Shown here one piece after another: positions 49,990 through 54,456 of a DNA stretch of 64,000 nt (its first letter is position 1; each line of letters starts with the position of its first letter). The notes beneath the pieces are model-generated. The model was not told the origin of the DNA. It searched no databases and saw only the letters and a program-made list of their open reading frames with translations. Origin of the DNA: Prochlorococcus marinus str. MIT 9211 (GTDB taxonomy: Bacteria; Cyanobacteriota; Cyanobacteriia; PCC-6307; Cyanobiaceae); NCBI RefSeq assembly GCF_000018585.1, contig NC_009976.1:739982-803981 (forward strand), given 5' to 3'. Both the position numbers and the translations under genes were made by a program.

Positions 49990-50205
49990 CTAGCTTTCTG
50001 GTACATTCAAAGTATCTCTATCAATCTGAATTTTTAGTGTTTCTATAGAAGCATTAATAGCTGCTATTCTTCTTTCTAGAGAGTCTCTATAGTATGAAAG
50101 CATTTCAAGCTTTCTCTGTTGAAAATAGATTTTTCTCTTTTCTCTATTAATACTACCACCACAAAATTCAGAAATAATCATAGCTATAGGTATATTCCCT
50201 AACAT
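49990..50205 (-). CDS. Small coiled-coil-like protein of unknown function
   Basis: This 71-residue reading frame begins with a short hydrophobic stretch (MLGNIPIAMIISEF). A basic, helical region follows (REKRKIYFQQRKLEML), then YYRDSLERRIAAINASIETLKIQI, which has heptad-like spacing. The amino-acid make-up is that of a real protein and no competing frame exists on the other strand. I do not recognise a family. It is convergent with the Ap4A phosphorylase gene and divergent from the J-domain gene. Confidence 0.6.
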   Translation of the reverse strand: MLGNIPIAMIISEFCGGSINREKRKIYFQQRKLEMLSYYRDSLERRIAAINASIETLKIQIDRDTLNVPES

Positions 50206-50408: not shown

Positions 50409-51470
50409 ATGAAAGTGTCATCCTCTGGGAACGATGGATCTCGTCGAATATCCGTTGATCTCCCTAATGAAATAATAGAACGTTTTGACGAACTAAAGCA
50501 GCAATGGGGTTTACGAAGGAGAGGGGCTGTACTTGAAAGATTGCTTGAAGAGCTACTTTGTGATGAGGTCGACAATGTTGATGGTTCAGGCAACTCTCTT
50601 TCTCCCGAGGAAGGTCTTGAGACTAAATCCTCTATACCTTTCGATAAAGATAATCATATTTCTGAGGAGTACAACGAGGAAAACGCAATTGTATTAATTA
50701 GTTCGTCCGAAATTGAGTATACAAAACTAGGATCTCAAGAGAATAAATCCTTTGACCAGGTTTCTCAAGTCAAGAGATCTGTTAATTCAACACCTGGAAT
50801 AGATCTGCCAGGATTCGTACGTACTAAAACCAAGAACTTAAGGGCCAGTCTTGGGCGCACATCATCCACTTCATCTTCTTTAGACCCTGTTTTACATAAC
50901 GTAAATGAAGAAGAAGTCTCTAATTGCCTAACTGAAACCATGAATCACTGGATCTCTCTATATGGCAGCAAACCTAAAGATAATGTTTTAGAGGCAGCAA
51001 TGATTTGGTTGGCACGTGATATATGGTCACACATAGATGGGACAGAGAATCGACCATTTACTTGGAAAGCGGCAACCTTGCAGATGAGCCAATACTGTAG
51101 TGGCTGGAAGAATCTTGAACCGAAATTTGATCGAATTATTGTATTAGCAGGGGTTCTCGAGGATCCATTTGCTACTCATACTCTTAAAAATAGAATTCCA
51201 ACATTAGTTAGACGATTTGTAAATAGCTTTAAACGAAGGCATAACGTTACCTCCTTTCAAACATTGGAATCTACTATGACCATCCATGGAGCGCTCAAAC
51301 TACTCGACCTTCCCACTGCGGCTGGAGCATCATTATCATTATCCACTATCCGTGATTCATATAAAGTAAAGGCAGTCGCTAATCATCCAGATGCCGGGGG
51401 ATCGACAGAGACAATGAGACGAATCAATGAAGCCTATCAACTCCTAAAGGAACTCTACAGAAAGAAGTGA
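50409..51470 (+). CDS. Ribbon-helix-helix-like / J-domain hybrid protein
   Basis: This 353-residue protein has an unusual domain order. Residues about 10-52 (RRISVDLPNEIIERFDEL, then RRRGAVLERLLEELL) match the beta-helix-helix pattern of ribbon-helix-helix DNA-binding proteins. A polar, acidic, probably disordered linker covers about residues 55-170. A helical middle domain of about 120 residues (NHWISLYGSKP to FVNSFKRRHNV) is unknown to me. The C-terminus is a short J-domain with HPD at residues 326-328 and GGSTETMRRINEAYQLL. It could bind DNA and recruit a DnaK. The gene stands alone and is flanked by repeat-bearing intergenic sequence. Confidence 0.85.
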   Translation: MKVSSSGNDGSRRISVDLPNEIIERFDELKQQWGLRRRGAVLERLLEELLCDEVDNVDGSGNSLSPEEGLETKSSIPFDKDNHISEEYNEENAIVLISSSEIEYTKLGSQENKSFDQVSQVKRSVNSTPGIDLPGFVRTKTKNLRASLGRTSSTSSSLDPVLHNVNEEEVSNCLTETMNHWISLYGSKPKDNVLEAAMIWLARDIWSHIDGTENRPFTWKAATLQMSQYCSGWKNLEPKFDRIIVLAGVLEDPFATHTLKNRIPTLVRRFVNSFKRRHNVTSFQTLESTMTIHGALKLLDLPTAAGASLSLSTIRDSYKVKAVANHPDAGGSTETMRRINEAYQLLKELYRKK

Positions 51471-51481
51471 ATCAACTGTCT

Positions 51482-51600
51482 TAGACTAGACTTAGTAGTA
51501 GACTAATAACAAGTCTAACCTAAGATTATAGAGTCTATTGCTGGGCTAGTCTGATATTGGTTAGACTCACAAGCCTCGCATGAGTCTAGTAATGAGTCTT
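51482..51600. repeat. Cluster of TAGACT/AGTCTA hexamers
   Basis: Seven exact copies of TAGACT or its complement AGTCTA start at 51482, 51487, 51499, 51512, 51532, 51562 and 51583. Two near copies start at 51548 (AGTCTG) and 51595 (AGTCTT). Both orientations occur. One pair makes a perfect 8-bp inverted repeat, TAGACTCA and TGAGTCTA, with 11 bases between (51562-51588). Further copies lie at 51893 and 51917, with AAGACT at 51905. By base composition less than one exact copy would be expected in 119 bases. The cluster begins 12 bases after the stop codon of the RHH/J-domain gene. Confidence 0.75.
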
Positions 51601-51688
51601 ATTGCGATAATCATCTGGTTCTCTTGAGATTAGATAAAAGCCTTTTCTTTTAAATAGAAATGTCAAATGCATGGTAAATGCCACCTTA

Positions 51689-51751
51689 ATGAAAATAGAA
51701 TTATGGTTAATTCCAATCGTATGGATATCCGTCCACTTTTTGTCCAAATAA
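51689..51751 (+). other. Possible 20-residue hydrophobic peptide frame
   Basis: An ATG opens 20 codons with the hydrophobic pattern MKIELWLIPIVWISVHFLSK and then TAA. The length and hydrophobicity are what very small thylakoid subunits look like, but I recognise no known family, no ribosome binding site is evident and a frame this short can arise by chance. It is listed only because the 480-base region otherwise holds no gene. Confidence 0.12.
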
Positions 51752-51794
51752 AAAGGCATCTTCAAGACCTCTTTGTATAAAAGCGTTTTACTCT

Positions 51795-51825
51795 ATGAGT
51801 AACTGTTATATATACAGTTACTCAT
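51795..51825. other. Perfect 12-bp inverted repeat
   Basis: ATGAGTAACTGT (51795-51806) and ACAGTTACTCAT (51814-51825) are perfect complements separated by TATATAT. No T-run follows on either strand and the stem is AT-rich, so it is a poor intrinsic terminator. It fits better as a protein-binding palindrome or an mRNA 3'-end stabiliser for the J-domain gene or the convergent pheT. Ten bases of an arm recur upstream of the RHH/J-domain gene at 50318. The rest of 51601-51951 shows no gene I can support. Confidence 0.65.
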
Positions 51826-51951
51826 AATCTAATTGCTCCAAAGAGAGGCTACCAAGAGCAACTACCTAACATTTATCTAGCTGGTATCAATTTAGACTTT
51901 TTGTAAGACTTAGGTTTAGACTCATAAGAGATAAGTGGGAAGCCTTGTTGA

Positions 51952-54456
51952 TTAGATTCGAGGTTTTACTTTGAAACTCTGTACGAGTTCTTTCAGTATC
52001 CGATCATGAACAGGATTGATCTCTGTTTCCTTTAAGGTCTCCTTTTTCTTTCTATAGGTAAGCCTAAAAGCAAGACTAACTTCTCCGCTGTCAATATTCC
52101 CACCTTCATATCTGTCAATCAGTTCTACGCTTTCAAGAAGTGGGGTACCAGTTTTCATTATTTTTTTTATTATGTCTCCTGCTAGATACTCTTTAGATAC
52201 AATTACAGCCATATCCCTTTGCATATGAGGCACAGTTGCAAATTCTTTAAATGATCTCAACCATTTGTTCCTCCTCGCTGCAGCTTCTAGCATTGCATCC
52301 ATAGACACCTCGAAAAGAAATGTAGACCTATTTATATTTAATTTGTTGGCAAGCTCAGGGTTTATTTGTCCAAATACCCCAAATCTTTTTCCCTCAAGAA
52401 TTAGTTCAGCTGATCTTCCTGGATGTAATCTTTCATCATTTCTCAATGGTCTATCTTCTACATTAATTTTTAGTCGGTCAGTTAACTGAGTTATTTTCCC
52501 TCGAGCAGTGTAGTAGTCCATATCCCTCTGCTTTCCCTCATTTGTCCATAATTCCATTGATCTATATCCCGTAATAGCTCCAGAAAGTATAGATTTTTGG
52601 TAAATTTCTTTTTTCTCAACCGTGTAAACATTACCTATTTCAAACACCCAGCATGCCTGTTTACCTGAATCTATATTTCTCTTGCAAACTTTAAGATGTT
52701 CTTCCCATAGATTTGTTCTTAAGTGACTTGTTTCTGTCAATAATGGATTTGATATTGCTACCATTTGTTCATTAGTTTCATCTTTTGGTACAAGTGAGAA
52801 AGACACAATTTCCTGTAATCCATTATTGATTAGGCAATTTCTAATCGTCCTTTCTAAGCTCTGCTTTGGTCTAAGATATCCTGGCTTTATAGGATCAGGT
52901 AAATTAGCGTCAAATTTATCATAGCCAATTAACCGTGCTATTTCTTCAATTAAGTCAATTTCTCTCTGTAAATCGTTAGATCTATTTGCTAATACAGATA
53001 CTTTCCAACCTTCTTCTATACATTTGATTTCACATCCAACTTTCTTTAGAGAATTCTCTATTTCATTGTCAGTTAAATTTCGTTTTGTATAATTATTATC
53101 AGGCGGATCTTGTATTGAAGTTCTCTTATTTCCGCTTTTATTAGAACTTGTAACTTTTAAAGCTCCAAGTATATTATGTATTCTGTCTCTCCTTAATTTT
53201 ATCTCATAATTGTTAGGCGTTAAATTCTTAGAAATAAATCCATCTGATACTCTACACTTAAAGCAATCATTGTATAACTCAACAGCTCTATTTACAGCTT
53301 TTAATGTTATTTGAGCTGAAATACCCTTTTCATATCTACTACTAGAATCGGTCCTAATACCGATCTTTCTAGACGATCTTCTTATTGATGTTGAAGTGAA
53401 AACGGCTCCTTCCAGCCAAATATTTTTAGTATGTTCATTTACAGACGAACTCTTGCCTCCTATTATACCAGCCACTGCTATTGCTTTATCACAGCATGTT
53501 ATTACATGTGATTCATGATTTAACTCATACTCGTTATTATCTAGAGCCAATAATGTTTCTTTTGCTTTTGCCCTCCTCACTCCAAAGTCATTCTGTGTAA
53601 CCTCTTTATCAGTTAAAATGTTTAACTTATCAGCATCAAAAGCGTGCAATGGCTGACCTTGTTCCAGCATAATATAGTTAGTTATATCTACAATTGCATT
53701 GATAGATCTAATTCCAGCTTTTTCTAGTCTATTTTTCAACCAAAGTGGAGATTTCTTTTTACCGTCTACTCCCTCTAAATAACTTAAGCTATATATTTCT
53801 TTAGATGATATTGCCTCTTCACTAAGGTCCTTTGGTTCAAATATTTTAAATTCGACTAACGACTTAATTTTCGGGAGATTTAATTTAGAGTCTGTTATTG
53901 CGGACAACTCGCGTGCCAGGCCAACCATTGACATGCCATCTGGTCTGTTGGCCGTAATAGCTAAGTCCAGTATTGTGTCGTCCATCCCCAGTATTCCCCT
54001 TGGGCTAGAGCCTATTTCAGGAATTTTCAACAAACTGTCTTCTAAAATCTCTATACCATCCGTATCTGATTCAAGGCCAATCTCTCCCAATGAACAAATC
54101 ATTCCTTCACTCAGTACACCTCTCAGTTCGCTTTTTTTTATCTTTAGGTTTATCGGTTGTAGATAGGCCCCTTCTGTCGCGACAAGTACATGTACCCCAT
54201 CTCTTACATTTCTAGCCCCACAGACTATTTGGAGAGACTTCTTTGTTCCTATGTCCACACGACATATTTTTAATTTGTCAGCATTTGGATGTGGTAGCAC
54301 CTCCTCAACCTTTCCAACAACAATCCCCTTTACCTTGAGCCCAAGATCAATTTCTTCCTCTACTTCGAAACCAGAAATTGAAAGCTTTTCAGCAATTTCA
54401 GCAACATCCATACTGGTATCTACTAATTCCTTTAACCACGAGAGAGAAGCCTTCAT
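51952..54456 (-). CDS. pheT: Phenylalanyl-tRNA synthetase beta chain
   Basis: PheT (834 residues) pairs with PheS to charge tRNA-Phe. Domains in order: the tRNA-binding OB fold near residues 40-150 (GIVVGKVEEVLPHPNADKL), B3/B4 editing core (NAIVDITNYIMLEQGQPLHAFD near residue 236 onward), B5, the catalytic-like core from EIDLIEEIARLIGYDKF, and the C-terminal FDX-ACB domain (FKEFATVPHMQRDMAVIV). A polar insertion near residues 435-460 is rich in Asn, Lys and Ser and looks lineage-specific. pheS is not adjacent. The start is 115 bases from the divergent rpmG. Confidence 0.96.
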   Translation of the reverse strand: MKASLSWLKELVDTSMDVAEIAEKLSISGFEVEEEIDLGLKVKGIVVGKVEEVLPHPNADKLKICRVDIGTKKSLQIVCGARNVRDGVHVLVATEGAYLQPINLKIKKSELRGVLSEGMICSLGEIGLESDTDGIEILEDSLLKIPEIGSSPRGILGMDDTILDLAITANRPDGMSMVGLARELSAITDSKLNLPKIKSLVEFKIFEPKDLSEEAISSKEIYSLSYLEGVDGKKKSPLWLKNRLEKAGIRSINAIVDITNYIMLEQGQPLHAFDADKLNILTDKEVTQNDFGVRRAKAKETLLALDNNEYELNHESHVITCCDKAIAVAGIIGGKSSSVNEHTKNIWLEGAVFTSTSIRRSSRKIGIRTDSSSRYEKGISAQITLKAVNRAVELYNDCFKCRVSDGFISKNLTPNNYEIKLRRDRIHNILGALKVTSSNKSGNKRTSIQDPPDNNYTKRNLTDNEIENSLKKVGCEIKCIEEGWKVSVLANRSNDLQREIDLIEEIARLIGYDKFDANLPDPIKPGYLRPKQSLERTIRNCLINNGLQEIVSFSLVPKDETNEQMVAISNPLLTETSHLRTNLWEEHLKVCKRNIDSGKQACWVFEIGNVYTVEKKEIYQKSILSGAITGYRSMELWTNEGKQRDMDYYTARGKITQLTDRLKINVEDRPLRNDERLHPGRSAELILEGKRFGVFGQINPELANKLNINRSTFLFEVSMDAMLEAAARRNKWLRSFKEFATVPHMQRDMAVIVSKEYLAGDIIKKIMKTGTPLLESVELIDRYEGGNIDSGEVSLAFRLTYRKKKETLKETEINPVHDRILKELVQSFKVKPRI

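Follow-up and report, generated by a model that had tools for sequence, protein, structure and literature searches.

The closest described counterparts of the locus analysed here are the single-recombinase Xer/dif systems (XerS/difSL, XerH/difH, XerA/dif and the Legionellales XerL, PMC9765430; reviewed in PMC5357621). Like them, it has a short, two-armed, non-coding site near the replication terminus with flanking genes that vary, a single candidate tyrosine recombinase, and copies of the site on phages. It differs in its strongly palindromic arms, GTCCA boxes, large flanking arrays and adjacent RHH/J-domain gene, and in a recombinase that is encoded elsewhere, has an additional arm-binding-like domain and falls under all Xer equivalog cut-offs. 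The cer and psi sites of E. coli (XerCD with ArgR and PepA) also place a core beside accessory sequences, which here would serve putative DNA-bending or wrapping proteins, but the present site is chromosomal, lies at the terminus, has arrays on both sides, and has an RHH/J protein rather than ArgR and PepA as its proposed accessory factor. In MatP/matS an RHH-type DNA-binding protein (here a candidate one) is tied to the terminus, albeit through many dispersed matS sites rather than one compact site; MatP has dimerisation domains, and at our locus a J domain takes their place. Omega, ParG, MetJ and CopG share with it short half-sites in both orientations beside an RHH gene (here a putative one), but the locus differs in its fixed ∼67-bp module with 8–13-bp steps, its fused J domain, and the lack of a recognised ParA-like neighbour. 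We take the AGAC half-site described below to resemble the MetJ half-box, as a lead only. In Cyanobacteria, a comprehensive survey failed to predict dif in every case (PMC3025954).

The window, that is, the whole 64-kb stretch of Prochlorococcus marinus MIT 9211 DNA analysed here, contains the following features.

50409 to 51470, plus strand: RHH/J-domain gene, 353 aa, with a putative RHH at about 13–50 and a C-terminal J domain at about 310–348 with HPD; candidate array binder.
51471 to 51951: intergenic region with the repeats, between the RHH/J-domain gene and pheT (complement, stop at 51952).
51470 to 51536, plus strand: array module A, 49 bits with a profile built without this genome.
51563 to 51629, minus strand: array module B, 35 bits with that profile and 36 bits leave-one-out.
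51731 to 51735, plus strand: GTCCA box 1, 64 bp before the palindrome's 31-mer, a spacing kept in most family genomes.
51742 to 51746, plus strand: GTCCA box 2, 53 bp before the 31-mer and 11 bp from box 1.
51794 to 51826, no strand assigned: core palindrome TATGAGTAACTGT-TATATAT-ACAGTTACTCATA, with perfect 13-bp arms and a 7-nt centre; candidate dif-like crossover site.
51876 to 51942, plus strand: array module C, adjoining the pheT end, 37 bits and almost the same on both strands.

The intergenic region holds nine exact copies of TAGACT/AGTCTA, six on the plus and three on the minus strand, and seven of them are packed into 107 bases (51482–51588). The original prediction held this cluster to be beyond chance, and the numbers bear it out: 2000 dinucleotide shuffles of the region gave a mean of 0.74 copies and a maximum of 4, with none reaching nine. 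A cluster due to chance or composition would be consistent with the lack of hexamer enrichment over the window as a whole (35 copies against 46.6 expected). Against it stand the shuffles, a profile built from other genomes that matches only here, and the presence of modules in 85 of 85 genomes (see below); the probability of this explanation is negligible. Nothing of comparable density occurs elsewhere, in that no further 110-nt stretch with more than two copies was found in 464 kb (the window and a further 400 kb of this genome), and the pattern TAGACT, TAGACT, AGTCTA with gaps of up to 30 nt is unique to the cluster in a search of the whole 1.69-Mb genome. The shuffles, the pattern search and the 464-kb scan together rule out a genome-wide hexamer. 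A dispersed repeat family is likewise ruled out, the 166-bp array DNA having no second copy in the genome.

In Prochlorococcus, Synechococcus and relatives (85 genomes compared), the DNA that follows the RHH/J-domain gene has its half-sites AGAC and GTCT spaced in discrete steps. AGAC is followed by GTCT at 13 bp 112 times and at 25 bp 65 times, and by a second AGAC at 12 bp 54 times, while GTCT is followed by AGAC at 10–11 bp 96 times; most other distances have single-figure counts. The spacing is quantised at about one helical turn (10–13 bp). Alignment on the 13-bp pair gives a module of ∼67 bp, TcT.A...gTCT.ata..AGACT.a..attAGACT.AtaatgAGTCT.ATaTGAGA.t..tgAgAC. Leave-one-out profiles detect it at this position in every one of the 85 genomes, with one to six modules per genome and mostly three; the per-genome list from this procedure omits module A because the listed stretch begins one base inside it. 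A profile trained without the present genome scores above 8 bits only inside 51468–51942 over the 464 kb. The repeats reported originally are thus real and shared by relatives, so that the refuting condition set in the original prediction, absence from every close relative, does not hold. The exact hexamer, though, is just the local form of a longer, spaced AGAC/GTCT array, and the remaining copies noted near the end of pheT are part of module C of this site.

The repeat cluster belongs to a larger composite site. The original prediction saw the array but missed the palindrome at 51794–51826, the GTCCA pair and the location at the replication terminus. The palindrome has the consensus TTGCGTAnCTG-N9-CAGnTACGCAA in 77 of the 85 genomes, with scores of 16–21 against at most 15 in shuffles and an 11-9-11 layout of two 11-bp inverted arms about a 9-bp centre, in keeping with the ∼28–31 bp, two arms of ∼11 bp and short centre of dif sites. 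The remaining eight genomes, all high-light Prochlorococcus, have a shorter core, TACTG-N9-CAGTA, one side of which is TGCTG in MED4. The innermost three arm pairs (CTG/CAG) are always complementary, and the next position varies between A, C and T and pairs in 71%. The present genome has a single copy. Searches with the palindrome alone, in which the gene was not used, gave matches adjoining the RHH/J gene in nearly all matching family genomes, with one palindrome per genome in nearly all of them and extra copies in G057 and G172; outside the family, matches were found only at the level of reversed control patterns. The second palindrome of G057 (L183:3809-3835, C1:759808) borders a prophage-like element that encodes a T7-like RNA polymerase and an integrase of 517 aa, and has many TGTCCA/TGGACA boxes around it. 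That of G172 (L184:3029, C1:1046028) is isolated and away from the terminus, and reads GTAACTG-N9-CAGTTAC with GTCCA boxes upstream.

The two GTCCA boxes lie 64 and 53 bp before the palindrome in most Prochlorococcus, with 1–2 bp of variation elsewhere and a wider first step in part of Synechococcus; their separation is usually 11 bp. Some genomes lack one or both exact boxes, and in high-light strains the first box is GTCCT. The distance from the nearer box to the palindrome centre is 68.5 bp in low-light and high-light Prochlorococcus alike, and ∼69 bp family-wide.

A further reading is a transcription terminator that serves two convergent genes in both directions, or a structured RNA 3' end between them, the latter also raised originally. 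It would agree with the convergent genes of this window, with palindrome arms extended by at least three pairs in 16 of 77 genomes (∼1.2 expected), and with the good RNA fold of the first array (z -3.7), albeit a fold that arises because the half-sites are inverted. It does not agree with the absence of any intrinsic terminator (stem plus T run) in 51400–52000 or of a credible Rfam family match for the region. Moreover, the downstream gene is not convergent in every genome, several Synechococcus genomes conserve arms that do not pair (GCGTACCTG versus CAGTGACGC), and neither the fixed distance between GTCCA boxes and core nor the terminus position has an explanation in RNA. We reject a structured RNA for want of a credible Rfam match and a terminator, and consider this whole class of explanation very unlikely.

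Measured from dnaN, the site lies at 0.462–0.557 of the chromosome in 22 genomes (mean 0.499, sd 0.023); several of these positions are gene coordinates plus an offset, accurate to roughly 100 bp. In the present genome (1,688,963 bp, dnaN at position 198) GC skew is positive to ∼690 kb and negative beyond ∼920 kb; AT skew switches sign between the 788–804 kb and 804–824 kb stretches, with the site at 791.8 kb. The site is thus at the replication terminus, opposite the origin and near the skew switch, as is typical of dif. Its far-side neighbour is variously pheT or a 23S rRNA methyltransferase-like, Ppx/GppA-like or phycobiliprotein-like gene, names assigned from sequence without a family search. 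Since the flanking genes vary between genomes, the site follows the terminus and is not merely part of an inherited neighbourhood. In a genome of 1,657,990 bp, which we take to be MED4, the core is at 829,205–829,223. This falls within the 6-kb interval (826,000–832,000) in which MED4 vesicle DNA is reported to be most enriched; the authors name the site of the highest peak dif, from earlier literature (PMC10913375). The text consulted gives no dif sequence for that site. If the published position was itself derived from the vesicle peak, the agreement supports the location only and not the assignment as dif. Terminus enrichment in Prochlorococcus vesicles had been noted earlier (PMC7901474).

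The terminus position, and the arrays on both sides of a central element, would also suit a replication-fork trap of the Tus-Ter or RTP-like kind, in which array-bound proteins halt forks passing the terminus. Such a trap is hard to reconcile with modules whose orientation about the palindrome is inconsistent between genomes and some of which score alike on both strands, and we think it quite improbable.

The RHH/J gene and the array occur together in every genome examined, a link that is partly by construction because the genomes were chosen by this gene; neither the palindrome searches nor the position opposite the origin depended on this selection. The Pfam RHH_1 and DnaJ matches are both under their curated cut-offs (RHH_1 16 bits versus 20.5), so the RHH assignment draws on the weak Pfam match, a weak match to NikR/CopG, and two predicted helices that are in place after the strand in the model. 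Residues R13, I14 and S15 and the H326-P327-D328 motif are invariant among 27 homologues. A structure search with the model returned J domains only, with E-values that were not significant. The full-length protein is confined to the family, with only J-domain matches outside it. The 10–13 bp spacing, the co-occurrence of gene and array and the invariant R13 and S15 leave recognition of the half-sites by the RHH protein, as originally proposed, the best reading of the arrays; from co-occurrence and spacing in the sequences, the protein probably binds the modules. Genus g9 (e.g. G010, G064, G091, G113) contains family genomes that are 95–99% complete with no detectable RHH/J gene. A 71-aa ORF lies upstream of the gene in the window (49990–50205, minus strand), and similar short ORFs (REKRKxYFxxRKLExLxxYRDSLERRIAAI) are upstream of it in several relatives.

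A putative RHH gene, next to arrays that run in both orientations and placed at the terminus, could instead belong to a terminus organiser or centromere that works without recombination. The RHH/J protein on the arrays would then hold or position the terminus at the division site, as MatP does at matS or RHH partition proteins do at iterons, and the palindrome would be the site of another protein. A system of the MatP/matS kind has many short dispersed sites, but over 464 kb of this genome the modules are limited to one 0.5-kb region (51468–51942) and do not mark a wide terminus domain. No ParA-like gene was recognised among the neighbours examined. An organiser also leaves unexplained both the recombinase-like core with its GTCCA layout and the phage copies of core and boxes, described below, that have no local AGACT/AGTCT enrichment. 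We regard it as unlikely.

A dif-type site calls for a recombinase, and at least one tyrosine-recombinase match is present in all 21 genomes tested. In several of these the sole Phage_integrase match is a protein of ∼390 aa, 20 aligned copies of which are 51–67% identical to that of the present genome. R240, K267, R332, H355 and Y364 are invariant among the aligned proteins, and the usual HxxR histidine is Y329. The N-terminus has a weak, sub-threshold Arm-DNA-bind_2 match (E 7.8e-4), and its model, a three-stranded sheet flanked by helices, resembles an arm-binding domain; the nucleophile region of the model is of low confidence. Among solved structures an archaeal Xer recombinase comes closest, at low TM-scores, and the protein is not an ortholog of XerC, XerD, XerS or XerA by the equivalog models, all of which score it far below their curated cut-offs (best 38.2 of 220 bits). 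The gene (C1:493391-494542, minus strand) is far from the site, at 493 kb versus 792 kb. Relatives match in 181 of 242 genomes across the class, many at full length. Since the recombinase is class-wide and the palindrome as written is not, other cyanobacteria would need a different core.

The palindrome is also present on at least 120 IMG/VR contigs, and in 66 of the 120 listed the locus contains a terminase, thyX or RNA polymerase gene of T7-like cyanophage type. None gave a match to five query integrases, although these loci cover only part of each phage and a divergent integrase may have escaped. On T7-like cyanophage contigs of the listed set (L185–L304; e.g. L190:9953-9979, L214:6513-6539), and in AP013539.1, the palindrome and GTCCA boxes lie between the terminase/thyX genes and the early region. 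Boxes pointing at the palindrome peak at distances of 58 and 69–71 bp and at 5–12 bp, as against 55 and 66 in the host counted in the same way, and the phage spacers are unlike those of the host. Phage copies comprise core and boxes, with AGACT/AGTCT not locally enriched. The complete phage genome AP013539 (AP013539.1, L310:6793) carries the palindrome and has no annotated integrase, and isolates with their own integrase lack the palindrome. It was not found in the whole genomes of Syn5, S-CBP1, S-TIP37, S-SRP01 and S-CBP4, nor in the terminase-side regions of S-RIP1, S-RIP2, S-B28, S-SBP1, WH11-B, P-GSP1, NATL1A-7, P-SSP10 and the fosmid phage AP013538. Integrase-bearing cyanophages use that enzyme of theirs to insert at tRNA-Leu (PMC8776855). 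A search of 80 viral loci recovered no copy of the recombinase or of the RHH/J gene; accordingly, no prophage was seen at the host terminus, and no integrated phage copy was found there. The phage palindrome and GTCCA boxes fit a recombination site, and a phage that borrows the host recombinase.

There is good support for a conserved composite site at the replication terminus, and the best explanation of its core, ahead of a recombination-free terminus organiser, is that it is a dif-type recombination site, to which we assign a probability of roughly 0.6. This reading is favoured by the terminus position, the AT-skew switch, the single palindrome copy, the 11-9-11 arms, the rigid GTCCA distance, the conserved recombinase, the varying flanking genes, the copies on T7-like phages, and the MED4 core within the published interval of highest vesicle-DNA enrichment (PMC10913375). 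Against it are the distance of the recombinase gene from the site, unlike XerS and XerH, the class-wide spread of the recombinase beside the family-bound palindrome, the low-confidence nucleophile region, the tyrosine in place of the HxxR histidine, and phage spacers that differ from those of the host. As a dif-type site, the palindrome with its 9-bp centre would be the crossover site for the single conserved ∼390-aa recombinase, whose N-terminal arm-binding domain would reach both GTCCA boxes. The repeats would be accessory arrays of a composite nucleoprotein site, bound cooperatively on both sides of the core by the RHH/J protein from the adjacent gene. The bound arrays may fold the region into a complex that controls the timing and partner of core recombination, as the accessory proteins of plasmid cer do, and the J domain may let DnaK (Hsp70) remodel or release that complex.

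What looks to be new is a candidate dif-like site in a group where the dif survey found none (PMC3025954). We tentatively suggest that picocyanobacteria resolve chromosome dimers with a single arm-domain recombinase and a terminus palindrome under an RHH/J array coat that links to Hsp70, and that integrase-less T7-like cyanophages copy the core and GTCCA boxes and use the host enzyme. Because dif prediction failed in every cyanobacterium surveyed (PMC3025954), a concrete core together with candidates for the enzyme and its accessory protein brings the unlinking of sister chromosomes within reach of experiment, in the ocean's most abundant photosynthetic cells. If the dif-type reading is true, the site would provide a molecular address for the terminus-DNA enrichment of Prochlorococcus vesicles, and phages that lack an integrase may have in it a way to integrate.
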